A DNA stretch of 64,000 nt from Pegea sp. RAD2-039 (taxonomy: Eukaryota; Chordata; Thaliacea; Salpida; Salpidae), in the NCBI GenBank assembly GCA_034620365.1, contig JAQGEQ010000380.1, positions 2,232,001 to 2,296,000 on the forward strand, in the 5' to 3' direction. The notes beneath the pieces were generated by a model that worked only from the letters and a program-made list of their open reading frames with translations, searched no databases and was not told where the DNA came from. This document shows, one piece after another, positions 1-17,061 of the stretch. A program made the translations under genes and the position numbers. The first letter of the stretch is position 1. Every line of letters begins with the position of its first letter.

Positions 1-1206
1 AATTGTCTAGTTAAATAGATTGCTTGATTAAAATACGCACGTCTAAAGTACGGAAGAAATATAAATACTAAACGGAAGCTTTTATTTTCAATCAAACAAT
101 TTATTTAATTGAACAATTATGTCACCTCTGATGATTATGGTCAGACTAAACATATTTAGACACTGTTAAGGCTCTACACCACATTCGTCCCTAATTAGAC
201 TTTAACGTTTTGTATGTAGTCCATAACTTAAAAAATGTTCAAAATTTTGAATAACCTAAAATTCGTTTACTATGTAAGATTTCTTTAGATGTAGCATGAC
301 TTTTTCTTCATACAAAGACCGTCTTTCAAAGCTTAACATTAAGTCATTGCGATATCGATGCCTTTTCCCTGACATCTTTCCATTATTTAATTTTTATAAC
401 AATTCCTATCACCTTATTTCTAATGATTTGTTTAAATATCGCAATCATCTATACTTATTTAGAGGTTTGTCATTCAATATTTGTAGAATCAACGATTTCA
501 ATAACACCAACTGAACTAATAATTTTTTTAACAGCATAATCACAATTTGGGCTAAAACTCATTCAATTTAATAGATTCTGTGAAGAAAAAATTCCATATT
601 TAATCTCCGTAAACATCTGAACTACATTTTACTTTAGGTCAAGGCTGTTGTTAAAAAGCTTGCTGTTATATCTGCCAGTTAATAATTTTGTAATTTTTAT
701 GCCGCAGACTAATTAATAAAGGGTTTTTATACTTACAAAATAAATTGTTTGAAAAAGTTAATATTTGAACTAGCATTGAACAATTTTGTAGAATACTTGT
801 TTTAGCCACGTTAAAAAATGGTTAAAATAGTATTCATACATTAAAAATATCGTAGTAAAAATGTTGTTAGTCTTATCATTTTATAATAAGATAAACAATG
901 TTGATTAATTTTCAAAGATTTGGGAAACATATTTGTTTCATTTAAAGTCAGATGATAGAGTAATGCCAAAGTCTAGCACGAAAGATACTCGTAGAATAAT
1001 AATTCCATTGAGGCATTAAATAAGCGATGGATATAAGTCATTCTTGGTTTTAAGTTCAGCGAATATTAAAGGGGTAGCTCTATATTGATAGTTTATGTCT
1101 AGTGAGATTTGGTTTAGTCATAATTATCTATTACCTTAAAAATTATATCTATATTTAAAGACTAAATAAGTGGAGGTGAGATTTTGAAAGTTGATTGCTT
1201 TACATC
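1..1206. repeat. Left copy of a segmentally duplicated tRNA-array flank
   Basis: This segment is nearly the same as 11866-13838: bases 1-545 match about 11866-12420 and bases 546-1206 match about 13105-13838. Both copies run directly into a tRNA-Ser/tRNA-Ala pair. The left copy lacks about 690 bases present in the right copy. The short open frame at 296-514 recurs at 12161-12382 with many substitutions and no recognisable domain, so I do not call it a gene. Otherwise no gene is seen here. Confidence 0.85.
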
Positions 1207-1288
1207 GACGAGGTGGCCGAGTGGTTAAGGCGATGGACTGCTAATCCATTGTGCTCTGCACGCGTGGGTTCGAATCCAATCCTCGTCG
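1207..1288 (+). tRNA. tRNA-Ser(GCT), array copy 1 (T-stem mismatch)
   Basis: An 82-nt cloverleaf with acceptor stem GACGAGG/CCTCGTC, anticodon loop CTGCTAA giving anticodon GCT (serine AGY), and the long variable arm expected of a class II serine tRNA (GTGC-TCT-GCAC hairpin). It has a GGTTCGAAT T-loop and discriminator G. Position 1278 is A where the other seven copies have C, which replaces a G-C pair of the T-stem by G-A, so this copy may fold less well. It is followed after 4 bases by tRNA-Ala, with no T-run between them. Confidence 0.93.
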
Positions 1289-1292
1289 TATT

Positions 1293-1364
1293 GGGGATGT
1301 AGCTCAGTGGTAGAGCGCACGCTTTGCATGTGTGAGGCCCCGGGTTCGATCCCCGGCATCTCCA
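1293..1364 (+). tRNA. tRNA-Ala(TGC), array copy 1
   Basis: A 72-nt cloverleaf with acceptor stem GGGGATG/CATCTCC (one G-U pair), D-arm GCTCAGTGGTAGAGC, anticodon loop with TGC, T-arm CCGGGTTCGATCCCCGG and discriminator A. The sequence appears the same in all eight copies. A downstream TTTT run (about 1377-1380) is the first plausible Pol III terminator for the pair. Confidence 0.95.
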
Positions 1365-2306
1365 TGTTCTTATCATTATTTTCATTATTAAATCTTGTTT
1401 TAACAGTTAGATAGAAAATTATGAAAAGATTTCTGATTATTTTTATATTTCAGAGTAATGAAGCAATAAGAACTCCAATTTTAATTAAGAAATCTTTGTT
1501 TTATACCTTTTAAGTTCGGTTGAAGCTAAAGTCTTACAAGAATCCGGTATTCAACACCATCTTCATGACAGCTTTCATACATCTTCACATTTTCAATACG
1601 TTTTTCTCACCAAGTAATCTACTTTTCAATTGCCGTGGAACTTCTCTGGCATCAAGCTCCTAATTTTTGTTTTTACTACCTGGTCACTAACCACTTCTAT
1701 TTTTAAACCACCTAATCCGGATTACAATGTTTTGGCCTACTAAAGAAAATATTTTTAAAGACATTGATCGACTTGTTAAATCTTACAACTGCTACTAAGA
1801 ACTGTTTGAATTATAATTTGATGCAACTTTATTTTAAATCGGATTATTTTCGTTAATTATAACATTCCTATTTCTATCATTTTTTAATTCTCAAATCTTT
1901 TGAACTCTAGTATAAATGAAAAATATCTTTTAAATAAGATAACGACTCGAGTAAAAGTTGCTGCAAACTGTTTAATTCTTAATAAAAATGACAAAAGTCA
2001 TCTAGTATACCAGTTAAAAGTGATAAAGGAAATACTAGGAATAAAACTTTAGTATTAAAAACTTTTCAATTTTGAAATGTAATAATGATTTTACAAAAAA
2101 GTGATTATAACAATCGATATAGATGCAAAAAATATGATTGATCCCTGATTTTTACTTTAGCGAATACTAAAAGTGGAGCTCTATATTGATAGTTGGTGTC
2201 TAGTGGGATTTGGTTTAGTCATAATATCTATTACCTTAAAAGTTACATTTGAATTATAAGAATAAATAAGTGGAGGTGAGATTTTGAAAGTTGATTGGTT
2301 TACATC
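1365..2306 (-). repeat. Type-B spacer, internally deleted (unit 1)
   Basis: Matches the other type-B spacers but lacks about 375 bases between about 1515 and 1525 (the junction reads ttaagttcggttgaagctaaag). The second exon-like block is retained with its TGA. No intact gene is seen. Confidence 0.7.
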
Positions 2307-2388
2307 GACGAGGTGGCCGAGTGGTTAAGGCGATGGACTGCTAATCCATTGTGCTCTGCACGCGTGGGTTCGAATCCCATCCTCGTCG
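2307..2388 (+). tRNA. tRNA-Ser(GCT), array copy 2
   Basis: Consensus copy with an intact D-, T- and long variable arm and anticodon GCT. The spacer to the following tRNA-Ala is TAGT (4 bases), with no terminator between the two genes. Confidence 0.95.
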
Positions 2389-2392
2389 TAGT

Positions 2393-2464
2393 GGGGATGT
2401 AGCTCAGTGGTAGAGCGCACGCTTTGCATGTGTGAGGCCCCGGGTTCGATCCCCGGCATCTCCA
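2393..2464 (+). tRNA. tRNA-Ala(TGC), array copy 2
   Basis: Same 72-nt sequence as copy 1, with anticodon TGC. A TTTTT run lies about 16 bases downstream and would terminate Pol III. Confidence 0.95.
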
Positions 2465-2589
2465 TGTTCTTATCATTATTTTTATTATTAAATCTTGTTT
2501 TGATAGTTAGATAGAAAATGATGAAATGATTTCTGATTATTTTTATATTTCCGAGCAATGAAGCAATGAGAACTCCAATTTTAATTAAG

Positions 2590-3140
2590 AAATCTTTGTA
2601 TTATATATTTGTTTTATAAATGGACAATGATGACTCACGAGTTTAAATTCCCAGTCAAGGTTGATGTTTGATGTATAAACAGGACATCTACAGGGATATC
2701 TTCAATTGTTCTTCCTTTCAGGGACATAACTCTGGAGTCAAAATCTGCCAATCAATTAATAAATTATGGTTAGCATATTTTGCCTCACTAGATGCAGATG
2801 TAGAGAAGATCCTTTTGGGTGTTTTTGTAGTGGAAGGATGACATCTAAGAAAGATATCATCGATGTTTTGTTGTCCTAAATTCTTACAACATCAGAAGAT
2901 TTTCTTCTTAGATGATCAAGAAGGATCTATAAATCTGGGACACTGAGATGGGAACCTGTGAATCAAAACTCTCTTAATAATAATTAAATGCTTAATAAGA
3001 GAATTTAGACTCACTAATTTAAGAGTGAAAGACTTGATGGATCTTCGAAGAATAAACAGAAGATCTACAGGAGATATCATCCATTGTTCTTCAGGTTAAC
3101 CGTTCAGGATATTTCTAATTAAATTGCTTGAAGTTGCAAT
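2590..3140 (-). repeat. Type-A spacer, short form, with exon-like blocks
   Basis: Spacer after pair 2. It contains degenerate copies of a block with the core tctacagg.gatatcatcc. Read on the minus strand, the block gives short open frames such as MISPVDLLFILRRSIKSFTL (about 3014-3085), followed by GTGAGT. Relative to the long form after pair 5 it lacks about 450 bases, as expected from unequal exchange between similar blocks (equivalents of 7024 and 7484). No intact gene is seen. Confidence 0.6.
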
Positions 3141-3318
3141 AAATGTGAGTGATCCCTGATTTTTACTTTAGGGAATATTAAAAGCGGAGCTCTATATTGA
3201 TAGTTTATGTCCTGTGAGATTTGGTTTAGTCATAGTTATCTATTACCTTAAAAGTTATATTTATATTAAAAGAATGAATAAGTGATGGCGAGATTTTGAG
3301 AGTTGTTTGGTTTGCATC

Positions 3319-3400
3319 GACGAGGTGGCCGAGTGGTTAAGGCGATGGACTGCTAATCCATTGTGCTCTGCACGCGTGGGTTCGAATCCCATCCTCGTCG
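3319..3400 (+). tRNA. tRNA-Ser(GCT), array copy 3
   Basis: Consensus cloverleaf. The immediate upstream flank reads ...gttgtttggtttgcatc, a variant shared only with copy 6 at 7752, which ties units 3 and 6 together as duplicates. Confidence 0.95.
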
Positions 3401-3404
3401 TAGT

Positions 3405-3476
3405 GGGGATGTAGCTCAGTGGTAGAGCGCACGCTTTGCATGTGTGAGGCCCCGGGTTCGATCCCCGGCATCTCCA
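3405..3476 (+). tRNA. tRNA-Ala(TGC), array copy 3
   Basis: Consensus sequence. The downstream trailer is cattatatttattgc, so the usual TTTT/TTTTT run is broken to TTT. The first TTTT lies about 38 bases beyond the gene. The same change is present in copy 6. Confidence 0.94.
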
Positions 3477-3599
3477 TGTTCTTATCATTATATTTATTGC
3501 TAAATCTTCTTTTAACAGTTAGATAGAAATTGATAAAATAAATTCTGATTATTTTTATATTTCCGAGTAATGAAGCAATGAGAACTCCAATTTTAATTA

Positions 3600-4610
3600 A
3601 GAAATCTTTATTTTATATTCTTTGAGTTTGGTCTTATATCGGTTTTTATAAGAACAGTAAATGTTAAAGAGACTAATTAAAATGTTACATCATCCACAAA
3701 CTCTTAGTATCTTGTAAATAAAACCTGCCTAGAAAAGAACTGTCTTCAATTCTAAATCCTAGTTGAGTTTTGAGAAATGTCTTCAAATCTTCGCAATTAG
3801 TTAATGTTGTATCAGCAGCACGGGAGAAAATGGTGATTGGTGATGGTTTTCAGAGGTGTTAGTCTGCATCACCTCTTTCCTACTTTTAATATTCTCTGAA
3901 AGTCAACTTAAAACAAGTGAACTTTAGAGACTATCACAAGTATATTTGGAAGCAGTTGTAGGTCCACAGAATAAGCTATATATCAATTGTCCTTGCTTAG
4001 CTGTGTTAAAGCTAAAGTCTTACAAGAATCCGGTATTCAACACCATCTTCATGACACCTTTCATACATCTTCACATTTTCAATACGTTTTTCTCACCAAG
4101 TAAGCTATTACTCAATTGCCGTGGAACTTCTCTGGCACCAAGCTCCTAATTTTTGTTTTTACTACCTGGTCACTAACCACTTCTGTTTTTAAACCACCTA
4201 ATCCGGATTTACAATGTTTTGGCCTACTAAAGAAAATATTTTTAAAGACTTTGATCGACTTGTTAAATCTTACAACTGCTACTAAGAACTGTTTGAATTA
4301 TGATTTGATGCAACTTTATTTTAAATCAAAATATTTTCGTTAAATATAACACTCCTATTTCTATTATTTTTTAATTCTCAAATCTTTTGAACTCTAGTAT
4401 AAATGAAAAATATCTTTTAAATAAGATAAAGACTCGAGTAAAAGTTGCTGCAAACTGTTTAAGTCATAATAAAACTGACAAAAGTCATCTAATATACCAG
4501 TTAAAAGTGATAAAGAAAATACTAGAAATATAACTTTAGTATTAAAAACTTTTCAATTTTGAAATGTATTAATGATTTTACAAAAAAGTGATTATAACAA
4601 TCGAAAAATA
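3600..4610 (-). pseudogene. Type-B spacer with decayed minus-strand exons (unit 3)
   Basis: Two consecutive exon-like stretches are in phase on the minus strand. 4166-4226 (acceptor TTCTTTAG, donor GTAGTA) encodes RPKHCKSGLGGLKTEVVSDQ. 4024-4104 (acceptor TAATAG, donor GTAAGA) encodes a stretch ending in RIENVKMYERCHEDGVEYRI. In this copy an arginine codon CGA near the start of the second exon is TGA. A further open stretch at about 3813-3895 ends in SPVLLIQH and a stop. I do not recognise the protein. The same layout recurs in the other type-B spacers, so this is probably a gene fragment copied along with the tRNA pairs. Confidence 0.45.
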
Positions 4611-4793
4611 TGCAATAAATGTGATTGATCCCTGATTTTTACTTTAGCGAATACTAAAAGTGGAGCTCTATATTGATAGTTGGTGTCTAGTGGGATTTGG
4701 TTTAGTCATAATATCTATTACCTTAAAAGTTACATTTGAATTATAAGAATAAATAAGTGGAGGTGAGATTTTGAAAGTTGATTGGTTTACATC

Positions 4794-4875
4794 GACGAGG
4801 TGGCCGAGTGGTTAAGGCGATGGACTGCTAATCCATTGTGCTCTGCACGCGTGGGTTCGAATCCCATCCTCGTCG
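4794..4875 (+). tRNA. tRNA-Ser(GCT), array copy 4
   Basis: Consensus cloverleaf with anticodon GCT and a 4-base spacer to tRNA-Ala. Confidence 0.95.
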
Positions 4876-4879
4876 TAGT

Positions 4880-4951
4880 GGGGATGTAGCTCAGTGGTAG
4901 AGCGCACGCTTTGCATGTGTGAGGCCCCGGGTTCGATCCCCGGCATCTCCA
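4880..4951 (+). tRNA. tRNA-Ala(TGC), array copy 4
   Basis: Consensus 72-nt sequence, followed by a TTTTT run about 15 bases downstream. Confidence 0.95.
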
Positions 4952-5059
4952 TGTTCTTATCATCATTTTTATTACTAAATCTTGTTTTGACAGTTAGATA
5001 GAAAATGATGAAATGATTTCTGATTATTTTTACATTTCAGTGTAATGAAGCGATGAGAA

Positions 5060-6110
5060 CTCCAATTATAAATAAGAAATCTTTGTTTTAGATATTTAGA
5101 GTTTGGTCTTATATCGGTTTTTATAAGAACAGTAAATGTTAAAGAGACTAATTAAAATGTTACATCATCCACAAACTCAGAGTATCTTGAAAATAAAACC
5201 TGCCACAGAAAAAAACTGTCTTCTATTCTAAACCCTAGTTGAGTTTTGAGAAATGTCTTCAAATCTTAACAATTACTTAATGTTGTCTCAGCAGGACGAG
5301 AGAAAATGGTGATTGGTGATGGTTTTCACAGGGTGTTAGTCTGCATCACCTCTTTCCTACTTTTAATATTCTCTGAAAGTCAACTTAAAACAAGTGAACT
5401 TTAGAGACTGTTACAAGTATCTTAGAGAGCAGTTATAGGTTCACATAATCAGCTATATATCATTTGTCCTTGCTTAGCAGTGTTGAAGCTAAGGTTTTAT
5501 AAGAATCCAGTATTCAACACCATCTTCATCACAGCTTTCATACTTCTTTACATTTTCAATACGTTTTCCTCGCCAAGTAAGCTACTTTTCAATTGCCGTG
5601 AAACTTTCCGGGCACCAAGCTTTTAACTTTTGTTTTTACCACCTGGTCACTAACCACTGCTGTTTTGCTTTCCATTAGTAGACCACTTAATCCGGATTTA
5701 CAATGTTTTGGCCTACTAAAGAAAATATTTTTAAAGACTTTGATCGACTTGTTAAATCTAACAACTGCTACTAAGAACTGTTTGAATTATAATTTGATGC
5801 AACTTTATTTTAAATCAAATATTTTTTAAGTATAACACTCCTATTTCTATCATTTTTTAATTCTCAAATCTTTTGAACTCTAGTATTAATAAAAAATATC
5901 TTTAAAGAAGATAAAAACTCCAGTAAAAGTTGCTACAAACTGTTTAAGTCTTAATAAAACTGACAAAAGCCATCTATTATACCAGTAAAAAGTGATAAAA
6001 GATATACTAGAAATAAAATTCTACAATTAAAAACTTTTCAATTTTGAAATGTATTAATAATTTTACAAAAAAGTGATTATAACTATCGATATAGATGCAA
6101 AAAATATGAT
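5060..6110 (-). pseudogene. Type-B spacer with decayed minus-strand exons (unit 4)
   Basis: Homologous to the unit-3 spacer. Here the arginine codon that is TGA elsewhere is still CGA, so the second exon-like block is open. Its donor has decayed from GTAAGA to ATAAAA. The loss of different signals in different copies is what a non-functional array should show. Confidence 0.45.
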
Positions 6111-6278
6111 TGATCCCTGATTTTTACTTCAGCGAATACTAAAAGTGGAGCTCTATCATGATAGTTGGTGGCTAGTGAGATTTGGTTTAATCATAATATC
6201 TATTACCTTAAAAATTATATCTATAGTTAAAGAATAAATAAGTGGAGGTGAGATTTTGAAAGTTGATTGGTTTACATC

Positions 6279-6360
6279 GACGAGGTGGACGAGTGGTTAA
6301 GGCGATGGACTGCTAATCCATTGTGCTCTGCACGCGTGGGTTCGAATCCCATCCTCGTCG
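6279..6360 (+). tRNA. tRNA-Ser(GCT), array copy 5 (A-box/D-stem mutation)
   Basis: Same as consensus except A at 6289 in place of C (TGGCCGAG becomes TGGACGAG). This breaks a D-stem pair and alters the internal Pol III A-box (TRGYNNARNNG), so the copy may be weakly transcribed or non-functional. Its spacer to tRNA-Ala is 5 bases rather than 4. Confidence 0.9.
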
Positions 6361-6365
6361 TAATT

Positions 6366-6437
6366 GGGGATGTAGCTCAGTGGTAGAGCGCACGCTTTGC
6401 ATGTGTGAGGCCCCGGGTTCGATCCCCGGCATCTCCA
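6366..6437 (+). tRNA. tRNA-Ala(TGC), array copy 5
   Basis: Consensus 72-nt sequence, preceded by the 5-base spacer TAATT and followed by a TTTTT run. Confidence 0.95.
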
Positions 6438-6569
6438 TGTTCTTATCATTATTTTTATTATCAAATCTTGTTTTAACAGTTAGATAGAAAATGATGAAAT
6501 GATTTCTGATTATTTTTATATTTCAGAGTAATGAAGCAATGAGAACTCCAATTTTAATTAAGAAATCTT

Positions 6570-7590
6570 TGTTTTATATATCTGTTTTCTAAATGGAAAA
6601 TGATGACTCACGAGTTTAAATTCCAAGTCAAGTTTGATGTTTGATGTATAAACAGGACATCTACAGGGATATCTTCAGTTGTTCTTCCTTTCAGGGACAT
6701 AACTCTGGAGTCAAAATGTGCCAATCAATTAATAAATTATGGTTAGCATATTTTGCGTCACTAGATGCAGATGTAGAGAAGATCCTTTTGGGTGATATTG
6801 TGGTGGAAGGATGACATCTAAGAAAGATATCATCTATGTTTTGTTGCTCTAACTTCTAACAACATCAGAAGATTTTTTTTTCTTAGATGATCAAGAAGGA
6901 TCTGTAAATCTGGGACACTGAGATGGGAACCTGTGAATCAAAACTCTCCTAATAATAATTAAATGCTTAATAAAAGAATTTAGACTCACTAATTTAAGAG
7001 TGAAAGACTTGATGGATCTTCGAAGAGTAAACAAAACTTCTACAGGAGATATCATCCGTTTTTCTTCCTTTCTGAAATGAAACCTGAGAACCAAAAGCAG
7101 CTTATCAAATATTGTTAAATTGGAGACAAGTTTTGGCTCACCTGTTCAAGATAGAAAGTCTTTGAGGCATCGATACAACATCTACGAAAGACATCAGCGG
7201 TGATTCCTTTTTCAGAGATGAAAACCTGCGAGGCCACAATTCGATTATCAAAAATAATTTAATGATTTATCAAACTGTTAACTCACCTGATGCAGATGAC
7301 TCTTTCAGGTCTTGTACTAATAGGAAGGACATCTACAGAAGATATCTTCGTTCTTTCTGTTCTTCAGGAACTGTTCTTGGATATTGAAATGGAAACTTGT
7401 GAGTCAAAACTCTCGTAATCAAATAATGATTAAGAGAATTTAGACTCACTAATTTAAGATTGAAAAATTAATCGATCTCCGAAGAGTAAACAGAAGATCT
7501 ACAGGAGATATCATCCATTGTTCTTCAGGTTAACCGTTCAGGATATTTCTAATTAAATTACTTGAAGTTGCAATAAATGTGAATGATCCC
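6570..7590 (-). repeat. Type-A spacer, long form, with tandem exon-like blocks
   Basis: On the minus strand several blocks are bounded by good splice signals. 7142-7225 has a CGCAG acceptor and a CAG/GTGAGC donor, 84 bases, entry phase 2 and exit phase 2, reading SSLKKESPLMSFVDVVSMPQ. 6990-7083 has a TCTCAG acceptor and a GTGAGT donor, reading FRKEEKRMISPVEVLFTLRR. A block ending at 7287 with CAG/GTGAGT reads RTERTKISSVDVLPISTRPE. Another near 6790-6830 reads MISFLDVILPP. They share an (I/M)S-x-V-(D/E)-V core at about 150-base spacing. Stops occur in some blocks, so this looks like a decayed tandem-exon gene; the family is not recognised. Confidence 0.5.
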
Positions 7591-7751
7591 TGATTTTTAC
7601 TTTAGCGAATACTAAATGCGGAGATCTATATTGATAGTGTGTGTCCTGTGAGATTTGGTTTAGTCATAATATCTATTACCTTAAAAGTTATATTTATATT
7701 AAAAGAATAAATAAATGATGGCGAGATTTTGAGAGTTGTTTGGTTTGCATC

Positions 7752-7833
7752 GACGAGGTGGCCGAGTGGTTAAGGCGATGGACTGCTAATCCATTGTGCT
7801 CTGCACGCGTGGGTTCGAATCCCATCCTCGTCG
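7752..7833 (+). tRNA. tRNA-Ser(GCT), array copy 6
   Basis: Consensus cloverleaf. Its flanks match copy 3 (shared upstream variant and shared broken terminator downstream). Confidence 0.95.
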
Positions 7834-7837
7834 TAGT

Positions 7838-7909
7838 GGGGATGTAGCTCAGTGGTAGAGCGCACGCTTTGCATGTGTGAGGCCCCGGGTTCGATCCCCG
7901 GCATCTCCA
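7838..7909 (+). tRNA. tRNA-Ala(TGC), array copy 6
   Basis: Consensus 72-nt sequence. The trailer has the same interrupted T-run as copy 3. Confidence 0.94.
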
Positions 7910-8009
7910 TGTTCTTATCATTATATTTATTGCTAAATCTTCTTTTAACAGTTAGATAGAAATTGATGAAATAAATTCTGATTATTTTTATATTTCCGAG
8001 CAATAAAGC

Positions 8010-9050
8010 AATGAAAACTCCAATTTTAATTAATAAATCTTTATTTTATATTCTTTGAGTTTGGTCTTATATCGGTTTTTATAAGAACAGTAAATGTTAA
8101 AGAGACTAATCAAAATGTTACATCATCCACAAACTCTTAGTATCTTGTAAATAAAACCTGCCTAGAAAAGAACTGTCTTCAATTCTAAATCCTAGTTGAG
8201 TTTTGAGAAATGTCTTCAAATCTTCGCAATTAGTTAATGTTGTCTCAGCAGCACGGGAGAAAATGGTGATTGGTGATGGTTTTCAGAGGTGTTAGTCTGC
8301 ATCACCTCTTTCCTACGTTTAATATTCTCTGAAAGTCAACTTAAAACAAGTGAACTTTAGAGACTATCACAAGTATATTTGGAAGCAGTTGTAGGTCCAC
8401 AGAATAAGCTATATATCAATTGTCCTTGCTTAGCTGTGTTAAAGCTAAAGTCTTACAAGAATCCGGTATTCAACACCATCTTCATGACAGCTTTCATACA
8501 TCTTCACATTTTCAATACGTTTTTCTCACCAAGTAAGCTATTTTTCAATTGCCGTGGAACTTCTCTGGCATCAAGCTCCTAATTTTTGTTTTTACTACCT
8601 GGTCACTAACCACTGCTGTTTTTTGACCACTTAATCCGGATTACAATGTTTTGGCCTACTAAAGAAAATATTTTTAAAGACTTTGATCGACTTGTTAAAT
8701 CTTACAACTGCTACTAAGAACTGTTTGAATTATAATTTGATGCAACTTTATTTTAAATCAAAATATTTTCGTTAAATATAACATTCCTATTTCTATCATT
8801 TTTTAATTCTCAAATCTTTTGAACTCTAGTATAAATAAAAAATATCTTGAAATAAGATAAAAACTCCAGTAAAAGTTGCTACAAACTGTTTAATTCTAAA
8901 TAAAACTGACAAAAGTCATCTAGTATACCAGTAAAAAGTGATTCAGAAAATACTAGAAATATAACTTTAGTATTAAAAACTTTTCAATTTTGAAATGTAT
9001 TAATGATTTTACAAAAAAGTGATTATAACAATCGATAAATATGCAATAAA
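8010..9050 (-). pseudogene. Type-B spacer with decayed minus-strand exons (unit 6)
   Basis: Very close to the unit-3 spacer, including the cagaggtgtt variant near 8285 and the TGA in the second exon-like block near 8530. The 61-base first block near 8600-8650 is disrupted by a small deletion relative to unit 3. Confidence 0.45.
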
Positions 9051-9224
9051 TGTGAGTGATCCCTGATTTTAACTTTAGCGAATACTAAAACTGGAGCTCT
9101 ATCATGATAGTTGGTGGCCAGTGAGATTTGGTTTAATCATAATATCTATTACCTTAAAAATTATATCTATATTTAAAGAATAAATAAGTGGAGGTGAGAT
9201 TTTGAAAGTTGATTGCTTTACATC

Positions 9225-9306
9225 GACGAGGTGGCCGAGTGGTTAAGGCGATGGACTGCTAATCCATTGTGCTCTGCACGCGTGGGTTCGAATCCCATCC
9301 TCGTCG
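9225..9306 (+). tRNA. tRNA-Ser(GCT), array copy 7
   Basis: Consensus cloverleaf with a 4-base spacer to tRNA-Ala. Confidence 0.95.
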
Positions 9307-9310
9307 TAGT

Positions 9311-9382
9311 GGGGATGTAGCTCAGTGGTAGAGCGCACGCTTTGCATGTGTGAGGCCCCGGGTTCGATCCCCGGCATCTCCA
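9311..9382 (+). tRNA. tRNA-Ala(TGC), array copy 7
   Basis: Consensus 72-nt sequence with a TTTTT run downstream. This is the last pair before the spacer is truncated near 9985 and the peptide gene begins. Confidence 0.95.
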
Positions 9383-9990
9383 TTCTCTTATCATTATTTT
9401 TATTACTAAATCTTGGTTTGATAGTTAGATAGAAAATGATGAAATGATTTATGATTATTTTTATATTTCAGAGCAATGAAGCAATGAGAACTCCAATTTT
9501 AATTAAGAAATCTTTGTTTTATATATTTTGAGTTTGGTCTTATATCGGTTTTTATAAAAACACTAAATGTTAAATAGATTAATTAAAATGTTACATCATC
9601 CACAAACTCAGAGTATCTTGAAAATAAAACCTGCCACAGAAGAAACTGTCTTCTATTCTAAACCCTAGTTGAGTTTTGAGAAATGTCTTCGAATCTTAAC
9701 AATTAGTTAATGTTGTCTCAGCAGCACGAGAGAAAATGGTGATTGGTGATGGTTTTCACAGGGTGTTAGTCTGCATCACCTCTTTCCTACTTTTAATATT
9801 CTCTGAAAGTCAACTTAAAACAAGTGAACTTTAGAGACTATCACAAGTATATTTGGAAGCAGTTGTAGGTCCACAGAATCAGCTATATATCAATTGTTCT
9901 TGCTTAGCAGTGTTGAAGCTAAGGTCTTACAAGAATCCGGTATTCACCACCATATTCATCACAGCTTTCATACTTCTTCATGAAACTTTA
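9383..9990. repeat. Type-B spacer, truncated (unit 7)
   Basis: Matches unit 4 up to about 9980, where it jumps to the segment equivalent to about 4310 of unit 3 and then to unique sequence. This breakpoint marks the right edge of the first tRNA array block. No gene is seen between here and the 3' end of the peptide gene. Confidence 0.65.
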
Positions 9991-10287
9991 TTTTAAATCG
10001 AAGTATTTCATTTCTACAATCTTTAAACTTGCTTGCTACTCTTCCAATTTAACTAGGTATTTTTTAAGATGCTGCAAATTCGTTTGCGAAAAATTAGTTT
10101 TTATAAATGAAATATGGTTTTTCATTCACCTAAATAGGTATCTTAAACTCAGGAACTACTCTCGGTTCTCTATACTAAATGAGATGCAATAAAAAATTAA
10201 CTGCAGAAAAGCATCAGATGAGACTAACTTGAAAACTACCTTACACCAAACTACAGATAAATCACAAAAAGTTTTACAATTTAATAT

Positions 10288-10293
10288 TTTATT
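10288..10293 (-). terminator. Polyadenylation signal AATAAA of the peptide gene
   Basis: TTTATT on the plus strand reads AATAAA on the minus strand, about 140 bases beyond the predicted stop codon of the secreted-peptide gene. Confidence 0.55.
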
Positions 10294-10432
10294 GCATTAT
10301 AAAGATATTTTACTTTGAATCGAATCAGAAAGAATTTAAACACAATTTTATATGTGAGTTTCCTTAATAAAGTTTTCACAAAATACCAAGACATCTACGG
10401 TTTTTTGGAAATACATTTTTTCATCCGACAAT

Positions 10433-11551
10433 CTAGTTGTCAATTTCAGAGTCTAGTTCATCGAGTGCTTCTTCATCTTCAAAACCATCACTCATATGAT
10501 TAGCTGTTAAAAAATTACAAATGTTTGAACTGACAGATTTCTTATTAAATGTAATCAGACAACACTAAGTTTAGACTAAACATAAATAAAACTATAATTT
10601 TATTTAGAAATTGAATTAAAATAAATAAAACCAGAAGTAATTTTCATTAAGTATTACCTTCTGATGATTTGATGAAGCTGTCTATATCTGTTATCATCGT
10701 TTGAGCTTTATTTTCACCAAATTGGTCCTTTATGTTATTATACAAAGACGCCAAAGTATCTTCATACTCATCCTGATCAAGTGAGCTCTAAAATAAATAA
10801 ACTTGCTACTCAGTGACAATTTGTGTACGTCTTAACTGAAGATTATAACAAAGATTTTGGAAAGATTTAGTTGCTGAAACATAGCTCATCCTTCTGCTGA
10901 TTGTTTATTTCAACCAAGTAACTTACATTTTCTAGTTGCTTATTTTTATCCCCAAGAACCACTCTCATAAAATGATGAATACTAGGCTTTGTTCTTCTTC
11001 GACCTTTGAAAAGTCTTCTGATGCTGTTAAGAGATAAAACAATTATTAAAAAAACAAATTTAAAACATCAAGGTTATTTTTTAAAGAAATTCATACCAGT
11101 ATATTTAAAAATTAAAAATGGTTTTCAAAACTTTATACAAATTTCTAAAGCAGGTGAAATTTAGCCAGCTTAAGTAAAAAATTGCCAGCTTTTTTTGAGA
11201 AGATTAAACACTGGCAGCAATGAAAGTATTTTGCTCAGCACAGTTTTATCAGCAAGGTCAGAATTTGTTCACATGATAAGTTTTCATAGACTTAAACTAT
11301 TTCAGTTAGTACTGCAGTTCATGACTCAAATATAATAAAACTCATTTTTAATCAAACTTTGTATTGTAGATTGGAACTTGAACCAGGATCGGTTGCTGCT
11401 TAAAAATCATAGATTTATGGAATCGCCAGACCAGCATTTAGTCATAAACGATCAAAATAATATAAAGAACTTACAAGGCAGAACTCCAATCGGCATCACA
11501 AGTTGAAATCAGACCCACAGCAATCAACAAGAGGATTGTTTTGTAATTCAT
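10433..11551 (-). CDS. Secreted cationic peptide precursor, candidate tunicate antimicrobial peptide
   Basis: Four-exon gene on the minus strand (11475-11551, 10927-11023, 10658-10787, 10433-10503); the phases fit and give 124 residues. Residues 1-20 are a clear signal peptide (MNYKTILLLIAVGLISTCDA), with likely cleavage before D21. Residues 21-50 (DWSSAFIRRLFKGRRRTKPS, then IHHFMRVVLG) are strongly basic and amphipathic, with a C-terminal Gly followed by Asp that could supply amidation. Residues 59-124 form an acidic tail rich in D and E. Signal, basic core, Gly and anionic tail is the layout of known ascidian antimicrobial precursors (clavanin, styelin and Ciona types); no direct sequence match is claimed. 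The GRRR site would also allow a neuropeptide reading. A TTTTTTCAG acceptor lies about 14 bases before the ATG, and an AATAAA signal (complement of 10288-10293) follows the stop. Confidence 0.72.
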
Positions 11552-11865
11552 TTTCGGTGATTGCTGAAAAAATAAATTTGATAAATATATATAAAAGAAG
11601 AATTCAAATTACTTTTAATTATTATCACGTTGTTAAAAACAGTTAGAAAGTTTGAGCTATATAAAGGATTTGACTTCATGCTAAGTGATATAACTTGAGA
11701 TAATAGGGAAGTGATTGTCAAAGAAGTACAAGTAGTTTTAATTAAAAGCTTTTAAGTTTTATTTAATTTTCTTCCGCAGCTTAGACATAAACCTTCTTCA
11801 GTTAAGACTCTTCAAGTTTCATGAAATAAGAAATACATTTCACTAAATTCAACAGCGGTGAGTTA

Positions 11866-13838
11866 ATTGTCTAGTTAAATAGATTGCTTGATTGAAATAC
11901 GCACGTTTAAAGTACGGAAGAAATATAAAAACTAAACAGAAGCTTTTAATTTCAATCAAACAATCTATTTAATTGAGCAATTATATCACCTCTGATGACT
12001 AGGATCAGACTAAATATATTTGGACACTGTTAGCACTCTACACCACATTTGTCCCTAATTAGACTTTAACATTTTGTATGTAATCCATAACTTAAAAAAT
12101 GTTTAAAAATTTGAATCAATTCAAAAATCATTTACTATGTAAGATTTCCTTAGATGTAGCATGACTTTTCCTTCATACAAAGACCGTCTATCAAAGCTTA
12201 ACATTAAATCATTGCGATATCAATACCTTTTTTCTGACATCTTTCCATTATTTAATTTTGTTAACAATTCCTATGATCTTATTTCTAATGATTTCTTTAA
12301 ATATCGAACCTGCCATCTTTACTTATTTAGAGGTTTGTCCTTTAATATATATAGTATCAACGATTTCAATAACACCAACTGAGCTAATAATTTTTTTAAC
12401 AGCATAATCACAATTTGGGATTATTTTCCTGACATTATCACTTTAGCAGATTCTATTACCTGTTTTAGAATTGTGCTGAAAGAGTATTATTAAAAGAAAT
12501 TTTTAAACAAAGAGTTTAGTTGCTACAATTTAAAAAATCGTTTTTTTTTGTACTTCATTGAAATGTCACAATATTTACAGAATATTCAATATCTCAAGTT
12601 ATAGTAAATATATTTATTTATTTTTAATTATTAAGAGTTTGATTTATGAAATTTTAAAACAAAGTATGTATACTACTGCCCTTTTTTACTATTATGCATC
12701 TTAAAGTTATGTTTAACTTTTTTATAACTTAAATAGTGTTCTAAAATTGTTTTAATCTTTTCTTCTCACTTTTGACAGCCAGTTTCATCTGTATAGTCAT
12801 AATTAATTAAAACAATTAATTATTTGGTATAAGTATTTACTTCACAGAGGTCATTCTGCCTTTATGACTTTTTTACCCTAAACATTTACGACTTTTGGCT
12901 ATTTTTCAATCTGAGAAGCAGCACAAAAACTGTAAAGATTTGAAAATCCCTGTATTAAAATTCCCGTAATTTCTAGTAATTAATTTCAATTCTATAACTT
13001 GTAGTAATCGAACATAAAAGATTTTTATGTACCTACATAAATCGTGGCCAGCTGAAATACTTTAATTAAGATATTAGAAATTGTTATTGCTAGACCTCAT
13101 TTTAAAAATGCTACAACTTATTAATTTGAATAGATTCCGTGAAGAAAAAAATTCCATATTTAATCTCCGTAAACTTCTGAACTACATTTTACTTTATGTC
13201 AAGGCTGTTGTTAAAAAGCTTGCTGTTATATCTACCAGTTAATGATTTGGTAATTTTTATGAAGCAGACTAATTAAGAACAGCTTTTATACTTACAAAAT
13301 AAATTGTTTGAAAAAGTTAATATTTGAACTAGTATTGAACAATTTTGTAGTATACTTGTTTTAGCCACGTAAAAAAGTAGTTAAAATAGTTTATACATTA
13401 AAAACTAAAGTAGTAACAATGTTGTTAGTCTTATCATTTTTAAAGATTGATGAAAATCTACACCTCAATAATTTTAATAAATCCTGTGAAAAAATATAGA
13501 TGTCTTTATAATAACGTAAACAATGTTGATTAATTTTTCAAAGATTTTGGAAACATAATTGTTCCATTTAAAGTCAGACCATAGAGTAATGCCAAAGTCT
13601 AGGACGAAACTTATTCTTAGAATAATAAATCCATTGATGCATTAAATAAGAGATTCAATAAATGTAAGTCATTCTTGGTTTTAAGTTCAGCGAATACTAA
13701 CAGGGGAGCTCTATATTGATAGTTGGTGCCTAGTGAGATTTGGTTTGGTCATAGCTATCTATTATCTTTAAAAAATATATCTGTATTGAAAGAATAAATA
13801 AGTGGAGGTGAGATTTTGAAAGTTTTCTGGTTTACATC
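11866..13838. repeat. Right copy of the duplicated array flank
   Basis: Second copy of the 1-1206 segment, with two extra blocks: about 12421-13104 (absent from the left copy) and about 70 bases near 13440-13510. The extra 690 bases show no open gene. The segment ends at tRNA pair 8, as the left copy ends at pair 1. Confidence 0.85.
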
Positions 13839-13920
13839 GACGAGGTGGCCGAGTGGTTAAGGCGATGGACTGCTAATCCATTGTGCTCTGCACGCGTGGG
13901 TTCGAATCCCATCCTCGTCG
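13839..13920 (+). tRNA. tRNA-Ser(GCT), array copy 8
   Basis: Consensus cloverleaf, separated from copy 7 by about 4.6 kb that hold the secreted-peptide gene and the right copy of the array flank. Confidence 0.95.
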
Positions 13921-13924
13921 TAGT

Positions 13925-13996
13925 GGGGATGTAGCTCAGTGGTAGAGCGCACGCTTTGCATGTGTGAGGCCCCGGGTTCGATCCCCGGCATCTCCA
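13925..13996 (+). tRNA. tRNA-Ala(TGC), array copy 8
   Basis: Consensus 72-nt sequence. It is the last tRNA of the array, followed by a truncated type-B spacer and then unique sequence. Confidence 0.95.
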
Positions 13997-14690
13997 TGTT
14001 CTTAACGTTATTTTTATTATTAAATCTTGTTTGGATACTTAGATAGAAAATGATGAAATGATTTCTGATTATTTTTATATTTCCGAGTAATGCAGCAATG
14101 AGAACTTTAATTATAATTAAGAAATCTTTGTTTTATATTCTTTGAGTTTGGTCTTATATCGTTTTGATAAGAACAGTATTTATTAAAAAGATTAATTAAA
14201 ATATTACATCATCCACAAACTCAGAGTATCTTGAAAAAAAACCTGTCCCAGAAAAATATTGTCTTCTACTTTAAACCCTAGTTGAGTTTTGAGGTATGTC
14301 TTCAAATCTTAACAATTAGTTAATGTTGTCTCAGCAGCACGAGAGAAAATGGTGATGGGTGATGGTTTTCACAGGGTGTTAGTCTGCATCACCTCTTTCC
14401 TACTTTTAATATTCTCTGAAAGTCAACTTAAAACAAGTGAACTTTAGAGACTGTTACAAGTATCTTTGGAAGCAGATGTATGTTCCCGGAAACAGCAATA
14501 TATCATTTGTCTTTGCTAAGCAGTGTTGAAGCTAAAGTCTTACAAGAATCCAGCATTCATCACAGCTTTCTTACTTCTTCACATTTTCAATACGTTTTTC
14601 CTATTGTTTTTTTTGTTGTTGAGCAAGCTACTTCTTTAGTACCATAGGCTGCCACATGTTGGACCTTGCTAGTACCAAGCTCCTAAATTT
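13997..14690. repeat. Truncated type-B spacer after pair 8
   Basis: Matches other type-B spacers (gtttggtcttatatcg ... cagggtgttagtctgcatcacc) to about 14600, then diverges. The 14690-15380 stretch beyond it is AT-rich unique sequence in which I see no gene. Confidence 0.75.
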
Positions 14691-15380
14691 GTTACTTTCT
14701 AAGCCTCAAATTTGAGAGTATTGATACCTAATGATGATGTACCATTTTAATTTATTTTTATTTACTATTTTTATTATTTTCTAATTTTTTTAACTGAATT
14801 ATTTTTAAATGTTTTCTTTATAATTTTGTTTTTTTGTAAGAAAATAAGGTTAAAGATTTTTTGTATTTGCCCAAATTTTTTAGAAACTTAAAAATAGTTT
14901 TGTATTTGAAAAGTCAATCTGTAAGCTTTATAATTGAATATATAATAAATTATAATTATATTATTGTAACAATTAATGAATATTGATTAAGTAACAATTT
15001 AATATTTTATAAGTGATTTAATGCATGGTGTTGTATAGCCTTTAATTTTTGTTTAAATTCTTGTTGTAGTTGATCCATAGTTAGAAAAAAACTAGATTAA
15101 AAAAAAATGAAACATAATATTTTTATATTCTTATAAACATTTCGTGCAACTTTATGTAAGGCTGAAATATTTGTGTCAAATTATATTTTCGAAAAATGTT
15201 TTTTTAATAAAGAAAATTTTTTTCACTTTTTTAAAAGTTTTCTTTAATAATTTTTTACAATTATTTAACTGCAATGATAATATTTGTACAAAAACTTGTT
15301 TTGTTTTGATGGAATTCTTATGTTTTTAGTCTTTTTCTTATCTTCAAGTTTATTTTTTCAGATTTTTAAAAATATTTTAA

Positions 15381-17061
15381 ATGATGAGTGAAGGTGCCTC
15401 TGGAAAGAAGAAAGAGAGTGGAATAAAAAGTGTTGAGGATCTATCATGTTTGGATAAATCTGAACTAATTGATCGAATTCAAAACCAAAAAACACTAATT
15501 GAAAAATTAGAATTGAAAATAAGTAATTGTAAATATTTAATTTATTTTTTTACCTAGTTTTTATAATATATGTAATTGAATATTATTTTGGTTTTAATTA
15601 GTTTTTCTTAGATTATGATAATTAGTTAGTTGTGAATTTTCTATAAATATTTCCAAAAGTTATTATTATTAACTAAAAACTTTTCCTGATGAAATGTTGT
15701 ATATGTTTGTTTTATATATTTTATAAAAGTGTATCCATAACAAAATTATGTATATTTTATAATTTTATTTTTTGTAGTAGATGACCGACCAGAAAAAGAT
15801 AAAGTTCAAATATCAGAATCAAGTAGAAGAGAGAATGTTTTGGTGATGAGACTTGCTACTAAAGAACAAGAAGTTCAAGATTTAACTGTAAGTTGGTTTG
15901 ATAAGTGTCAGAAGTTTTATCTCTTTGAATCAGTTGCTTGAAAACTCAGGAATACAAACTGAATAATTGTAACTCATTTGTAACAGGCTCAGATATCAAA
16001 TCTGCATCGTTGTCAGTTAGATTGTCAAATTCGTGATCTTAAAAAAGCATTTCTTGATCCTAGTATTAATCTTCTCTTTGAGAAGTTTAGAAAAGATACA
16101 GATGAAATGAAGAAGCGTTTGGAGCAAGCAGAAAGCGAGTTAAGCGCTTGGAAATTTACTACAGACAGGTTTGTTTTCTTTTCACTTTTTTACGAACTAA
16201 CAACTTTTGAACACAGTCAACAAGGCAAACGCTTAATCGCAAGATGTCGTCTGCTAATTGCTGAAAATCAAGATTTAGGCAAGCAATTGTCACAGGGAAG
16301 AACCGCTCAGCTAGAAGCTGAATTAGCTTTGCAAAAACAGCAAGTTGCCAAGATGAAGGCTAGTCAGGAAGGTAAATACATCTGCGATTTATGCAAATTA
16401 ACCATAAATGGCTACAACAGAAATGAATGAGTTTGTGATTCAATTGGACGAAGAAGTGGAAGGAATGCAAAGTACAATTCAAGCGTTGCAACAAAGACTG
16501 CTGCATTCAAAGAAAAAAGAAGAACAATTATCAAAGCAGCTAGCCGAAACTGCGGATAAATTGATTACGTGTCAACGGCAATTAGATAATGATAGGTCAT
16601 CACCACTTGATCGGGGAGAGTTGATTGATGATAACATGAAAGACGATGGCATCACTAACTACTATGAAAGTGATGAAAAAAACCTTGACTATGATGAAGA
16701 CTATCACATGAAAACAAACGACCGTCATGCTTCAGTAAGCAGTGAAGTGGCACCCGGAACACCAATCAATGATGAGCATCACAATGACGTCACTTACAAT
16801 CGTAAGCATCAAGAAGAAGATGAACAGAAGAGTTATATCGAAGAAGAGGTTGTCGTGGAAACGGATGAACAGTTTACAGATGACGATGAGACTCTTGGAC
16901 GCGATTATTGGAAGCTTTCACATCGGCATCAAGATCTTACTTCATCTTATTCGATAAAACAAGAATCAAACAATCGGTTTTCAAAATCAGTGAGTAAAGA
17001 TGAAGATGTGGCGTCATCAACGCGCGGTAAAAAGCGTAGAGCTTCAGGGTCAACAAAATGA
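15381..17061 (+). CDS. WTAP: WTAP, regulatory subunit of the m6A methyltransferase complex
   Basis: Five exons (15381-15522, 15778-15887, 15987-16168, 16217-16371, 16421-17061) give 409 residues; human WTAP has 396. WTAP (fly Fl(2)d) is a nuclear coiled-coil protein that holds METTL3/METTL14 in nuclear speckles and also affects splicing. The family core is unmistakable: ENVLVMRLATKEQEVQDLT, SELSAWKFTTDS, GKQLSQGRTAQLEAELALQK and VIQLDEEVEGMQSTI. After about residue 240 the conserved coiled coil ends, and a divergent acidic, serine-rich tail follows, ending in the basic cluster RGKKRRASGSTK. The start is ATGATG; the second Met could also be used. A TTTTTTCAG acceptor 20 bases upstream suggests a 5'-UTR intron or spliced-leader addition. 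AATAAA lies at 17100-17105. Confidence 0.95.

Follow-up and report, generated by a model that had tools for sequence, protein, structure and literature searches.

A candidate secreted-peptide precursor gene in a tunicate tRNA array, and its relatives on a shared exon plan

When a short spliced gene turns up in the midst of a tRNA array, two questions follow: is it a gene at all, and what might its product do? The locus considered here lies in a window of 64,000 nucleotides, by which we mean the whole stretch of DNA analysed, and takes the form of a minus-strand gene of four exons with GT-AG introns at 10433-11551, whose product is 124 amino acids long. A preliminary description had proposed it as an ascidian antimicrobial-peptide gene, and the coordinates and peptide limits given there proved exact.

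Exon structure, copies and setting of the gene

Exon 1 (11475..11551, minus strand; 77 nt) carries a putative signal sequence (11551-11492), the codons of D21-A25 and two bases of that of F26, and ends in phase 2. Exon 2 (10927..11023, minus strand; 97 nt), the payload exon, encodes a cationic segment up to L49, then G50-D51 and a linker, and ends in phase 0; its share of the predicted mature peptide (10954..11023, minus strand) stops at L49, next to Gly50, a possible amide donor if cleavage and amidation occur as we infer. Exon 3 (10658..10787, minus strand; 130 nt) supplies an acidic pro-segment, predicted to be a helical hairpin, and exon 4 (10433..10503, minus strand; 71 nt with the stop codon TAG) an acidic C-terminal tail. 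The introns measure 451, 139 and 154 nt, in phases 2, 0 and 1, so the earlier statement that the first two are short fails for intron 1.

Candidate signals flank the gene. A TATA-like box (TATATAG; 11657..11663, minus strand) is, by eye, identical throughout an alignment of the six copies of the gene, and its function is presumed from its form. Closer in, a pyrimidine-rich CAG (11564..11576, minus strand), 12 nt 5' of the ATG, is a candidate acceptor, either for trans-splicing or for an intron in the 5' UTR. AG sites no more than about 30 nt from the ATG were also seen by eye in the upstream stretches of one B, two C and two D genes (families taken up below), and an acceptor-like site of this kind was not evident by eye in the upstream stretch of E; such sites are a hint of trans-splicing by a spliced leader, or of an intron in the 5' UTR. 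On the 3' side, AATAAA (10288..10293, minus strand), again read by eye, is a candidate polyadenylation signal.

A search of the assembly (105.7 Mb, 387 contigs) found six copies including the window gene, here called family A, the other five at 93-97% DNA identity. All six were modelled, like the B genes below, with splice anchors derived from the copies read first, and in each the frame is complete and the splice sites are preserved. Across them, variable columns number 15 of 375 in exons and 111 of 735 in introns (Fisher p=5.8e-9); the 15 coding changes divide into 5 silent and 10 replacement changes, giving a replacement/silent ratio of about 0.49 that is not significantly below 1 (p=0.19). 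Alleles or assembly overlap may account for some of the six copies. A stretch of 4.3 kb is shared at 99.2% by the end of C6 and the start of C44 (L034, L035), with inverted gene copies (96%) alongside, a sharing that is probably due to assembly overlap or haplotype duplication. The window gene is real and not a chance frame: six copies, intact frames, stronger conservation of exons than of introns, and a homologous sister family that shares its exon plan exceed what chance would produce.

As had been claimed, the gene is embedded in a tRNA array. It stands between the Ser-Ala pairs at 9224-9383 and 13838-13997, within a set of eight tRNA-Ser(GCT)/tRNA-Ala(TGC) pairs (16 tRNA genes; window 1206-13997) whose repeat units are about 1.0-1.5 kb long and roughly 86-96% alike. 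Rfam scores the tRNA-Ser genes of pairs one and five at 58.6 and 57.7 bits, against 66.3 for the other six, and a tandem-repeat finder run over window 1-16000 reported only two small AT-rich arrays. Does this setting bear on the gene itself? In the pieces at the C6 end and the C44 start, which hold two of the A copies, nothing longer than 300 bp matches the tRNA-bearing unit. The pieces around the B genes yielded no tRNA, although stretches read as N limit such counts outside the window; for these two reasons the tRNA link looks incidental. A further candidate point, the absence of tRNA genes from related repeat units, was dropped, as the pieces outside the window hold stretches read as N.

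The setting does invite a reading in which the gene is a duplicate that has decayed or is not expressed, a passenger of the tRNA repeat array among whose units it sits. We regard this as highly improbable, considering that all six copies are intact, that exons are conserved over introns to the degree given above, and that the two copies at the C6 end and the C44 start show no match to the tRNA-bearing unit.

Elsewhere in the window, a gene of the WTAP/Mum2p family, a subunit of the m6A methyltransferase, lies at 15984-16427 (Pfam E=8.6e-35), and an acidic frame at 16408-17058 overlaps it and may belong to the same gene.

Layout of the precursor and a sister family

What kind of product does the gene encode? 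Read by eye, the leader is a hydrophobic, putative signal sequence of 20 residues, in agreement with the signal peptide described earlier. The 29 residues D21-L49 carry a net charge of +7 and include an internal KGRRR (K32-R36), while the 74 residues from Asp51 onwards have a net charge of -17; the strongly basic segment and the acidic tail of the preliminary description are both borne out by these values.

The same layout recurs beyond family A. A protein search of the genome found 12 further places (C83, C189) that match the tail exon at 32-37% identity, and 11 of these were modelled, the twelfth (C83:536275) having been missed by the anchor motif. All 11 models are open; exon 4 is where they are least secure, since the acidic end motif decided between acceptors. 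In each of the 17 models (6 A, 11 B) exons 1 and 3 have lengths of 77 and 130 nt, and exon 2 measures 97 nt in family A, 73 nt in the eight B1 genes and 61 nt in the three B2 genes. End to end, the A protein is 35% identical to one B1 protein (two-sequence E=9e-25). With their flanks, the A and B payloads align better than 5000 (B1b), 4999 (B1a) and 5000 (B2) of 5000 shuffles; once the DW and LGD ends are removed, the payload cores are weakly alike (895 for B1b, 158 for B1a and 919 for B2, of 5000). On sequence grounds, B is a diverged homologous sister family of A with the same four-exon layout. In all 17 models a D/G-W start is followed by a cationic segment (+7 in A, +4 in B), by an L-G-D junction and then by an acidic tail of net charge -10 to -18, so that the Gly-Asp ending noted for the window gene turns out to be a property of both families.

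One part of the earlier account does not stand, namely that the basic segment is amphipathic. Its best 18-residue helical moment, 0.42, is equalled or beaten by 1378 of 5000 shuffles, and the moments of four shorter pieces of the payload are reached by 466 to 1044 of 5000. Among the four payloads compared (A, B1a, B1b, B2), the moment stands out only in B1b, which is clearly amphipathic (reached by 76 of 5000 shuffles), the figures for B1a and B2 being 560 and 1112 of 5000. When exon 2 is modelled alone with AF2, a coil is followed by a helix at I41-L56 that crosses the supposed cleavage site (mean pLDDT 77.9, pTM 0.32). This model lends no support to a single long amphipathic helix that would end at L49, and it leaves our confidence in an antimicrobial reading slightly lower and that in each rival slightly higher. 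The exon 3 stretch, modelled alone from a single sequence, is predicted as two helices with a mean pLDDT of 91.9.

The internal KGRRR resembles a textbook amidation/convertase site. Could the gene then encode the precursor of a neuropeptide or peptide hormone, in which convertases would cleave the segment internally, at RR and KGRRR, and the resulting short peptides, one of them amidated, would act on receptors? GRRR is kept in all six A copies, and the payload exon is the most conserved among them (2 variable columns in 97, a smaller share than in any other exon), as would be expected of a receptor ligand. However, GRRR is found in none of the 11 B models, and what is conserved in all 17 models is an L-G-D boundary without flanking basic residues. 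The three lengths of the payload exon and the many gene copies are, in our judgement, unusual for a ligand, and no repeated peptide units were seen by eye. Because of the conserved boundary without basic residues, and because the payload differs between families, we hold neuropeptide use to be unlikely.

Comparison with tunicate peptides

The nearest known layout is that of the styelins. In the part of the source available, styelin precursors consist of a 22-residue signal, a mature peptide of 31-32 residues, a Gly amide donor and a 26-residue C-terminal pro-piece, and styelin D has bromotryptophan at position 2 (PMC8659048). The window protein matches the layout of styelins A-E (Styela clava) with other lengths (20 residues, 29 residues, Gly50, 74 residues), its tail being far longer than the 26-residue pro-piece given there. 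Styelins are heavily modified after translation, with bromo-Trp, DOPA and hydroxylated Arg and Lys, and are amidated. Trp also stands at position 2 of the predicted mature window peptide, where styelin D has its modified Trp, and against the Phe-rich styelins the window peptide has 3 Phe among 29 residues. This likeness does not extend to sequence: against the N-termini of styelins A and B as printed in PMC8719109 (20 residues, with two blanks, and hence a weak test), anchored comparison gave p 0.12 (A) and 0.09 (B), and local alignment with the window payload p 0.55 and 0.41.

A second comparison is offered by botryllin of Botryllus schlosseri, given in the available part of PMC9966394 as a 158-residue pre-propeptide of morula cells. 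There, antibodies to a propeptide epitope stain both granules and extracellular traps, and it is suggested that cleavage follows release (PMC9966394); the printed fragments include GWYNKHKPTIHK and KEHDRDEYDGAL (PMC9966394). Where the window protein has 124 residues and a predicted peptide of 29, botryllin, as printed there, has 158 residues, a 37-residue mature peptide starting GWYNKHK, and a long propeptide. In these excerpts the mature peptide contains KPTIH and the propeptide DRDEYDGAL, to be compared with KPSIH and DQDEYEDTL in the window protein, in the same order.

How much weight can these short likenesses bear? We compared botryllin through three printed fragments, Ab1 (mature N-terminal), Ab2 (mature C-terminal) and Ab3 (propeptide), in 15 comparisons with uncorrected p. 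Ab1 matches the window protein through KPTIH/KPSIH, with 6 of 1000 shuffles as good in one of these 15 uncorrected comparisons; when all six frames of the window are scanned, at least seven other hits exceed its score of 25, and against three B proteins this printed fragment gave no match (420 to 786 of 1000 shuffles as good). Ab3 matches through DRDEYDGAL/DQDEYEDTL, with 9 of 1000 shuffles as good, again in one of 15 uncorrected comparisons; its score of 30 ties for first place with one other stretch in the six-frame window scan, and among the relatives the corresponding figures for this fragment are 19 to 28 of 1000 for three B proteins and 1 of 1000 for one C protein. The printed Ab2 fragment has no match in the window protein (446 of 1000). 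We treat the botryllin fragment matches as leads and not as proof.

Further afield, the linear cationic peptides of Ciona (Ci-MAM, Ci-PAP and the 2020 candidates) have, in the accessible part of PMC7387483, a signal peptide, a cationic segment and often an anionic helix, and two of the Ciona peptides start with DW or DGW and contain GRRRR (PMC7387483). Sequence comparison with Table 1 of that source gave p 0.22 for the A payload (21 helix sequences) and p 0.93 for the A pro-segment (17 sequences); among the B payloads, p was 0.02 for B2 and 0.43 and 0.49 for B1 against the Ciona sequences printed there. The low homology between antimicrobial peptides is stressed in the same part of that work (PMC7387483), and the lack of obvious sequence identity put forward in the preliminary description holds against both the styelin A/B N-termini and the Ciona peptides as printed in these partial sources. 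Clavanins and clavaspirin are small, amidated peptides of tunicate hemocytes, described as having 23 residues rich in His and Phe, which sets them apart.

Searches of domains and structures were largely silent. Pfam returned only sub-threshold matches for the window protein, eight exon 3 members, three B proteins, one C and one D protein. Against the PDB, the best E-values were an unconvincing 0.79 for the full window protein and an equally unconvincing 0.011 (PINS) for the exon 3 profile, and the A and B payloads had no match; exon 3, being without a convincing PDB or Pfam match, thus has no function suggested for it. In the literature searched (styelin and botryllin relatives and tunicate peptide gene families, subscription papers lying mostly outside), no account of the family or its shared pro-segment exon turned up. 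It looks like a new family on a known plan, that of tunicate cationic peptide precursors.

As to the host lineage, two matches share a strand of C14 with about 1.8 kb between them: one to a glycosyltransferase (PF13632, E 4.7e-15), the other to GH6, at 27.5 bits just over the cut-off of 27. In tunicates, cellulose synthase is fused to a GH6 domain, and we take the C14 pair to fit this arrangement. COX1, sought as a test of the mitochondrial code of ascidians, did not turn up in the assembly. These matches place the gene at the level of tunicates, and it is at that level alone that the earlier "ascidian" is supported; the earlier interpretation as a whole is supported in part.

We think it rather probable, from the sequence comparisons above, that the window gene is a tunicate secreted-peptide precursor working as a host-defence (antimicrobial) precursor of the styelin/botryllin type, a design backed by layout, charge, the L-G-D junction of all 17 models and the short matches to the printed botryllin fragments. 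Signal peptidase would cut after A20, and the acidic segment of exons 3-4 (hairpin and tail) would neutralise the cationic peptide and escort it in a storage granule. A protease would then cut between Gly50 and Asp51, Gly50 would become the C-terminal amide, and the freed +7 peptide D21-L49 would bind and permeabilise microbial membranes. Perhaps the internal KGRRR serves in family A as a second cut, yielding two shorter peptides.

Further families and a modular precursor

The preliminary description made no mention of the gene's membership in a multi-family set, which extends past A and B. A genome search with a B query added three weak matches on C6 (E 0.14-0.25). With a C-exon query, at least 36 places scored; among the matches listed, 12 belong to family B, nine, the query's place among them, are of family C (C6, C59, C78), and 15 are weaker places on C6 and C10. 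Among these listed matches, C is linked to B at E-values of 0.015-0.089, and the 15 weaker places to C at 0.005-0.037. Since the linking E-values are modest, families C-E are only likely relatives of A and B.

Five loci were read, four on C6 (L068, L069, L070, L072) and one on C10 (L071), and 24 of the 36 places listed lie outside family B; those outside may be small secreted genes of the kind read. In all five loci the signal exon is 74 nt long and ends in phase 2; a related helical exon is present too, and the payload exon is short, of net charge -2 to +1 and placed after a Cys that directly follows the leader. The C and D genes read stop, by eye, in or just past exon 3, and their payloads have 12-20 residues and net charges of -2 to 0. 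The widest-reaching result is that the helical-hairpin exon 3 seems to recur in further families whose payloads are non-cationic and follow a Cys.

Perhaps, then, the hairpin is the working part, and the product is a small secreted protein (structural, lipid-binding or a signalling peptide, for instance) in which the N-terminal segment is secondary. Exon 3 seems common to families A-E and folds confidently when modelled alone, unlike exon 2, and the C and D genes end with it or shortly after, behind short payloads that are neutral or slightly acidic. The charge split and LGD junction of A and B point instead to a released cationic peptide, and neither the exon 3 profile in the PDB nor the eight exon 3 members in Pfam yielded a convincing match; we consider a working hairpin rather unlikely, if less so than a ligand.

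More tentatively, yet as a distinct possibility alongside the host-defence reading, we posit that the window gene belongs to a modular superfamily of tunicates, with a signal exon (phase 2) and a hairpin exon kept constant on either side of a payload exon that is freely replaced, and with botryllin as its member from a different species. The payloads would be cationic with KGRRR in A, His-rich and amphipathic in B1, rich in Arg and aromatic residues with one Cys in B2, and short and non-cationic after a Cys in C, D and E. New secreted peptides would arise by tandem duplication, while the hairpin would do the folding, neutralisation and sorting. In conotoxin and frog-skin precursors, too, it is the pre-pro part that is constant. 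Considering the net charges of -2 to +1 of the five C-E payloads read, such a superfamily need not be antimicrobial.

What would these genes offer? As ascidian antimicrobial peptides are hard to find by similarity, an alignable, shared pro-segment exon with fixed exon lengths would provide a handle for genome searches. The same exon lets one ask whether styelins, botryllin and genes of the window type descend from one precursor, and with several payloads on one scaffold, the replacement of payloads would become directly testable.
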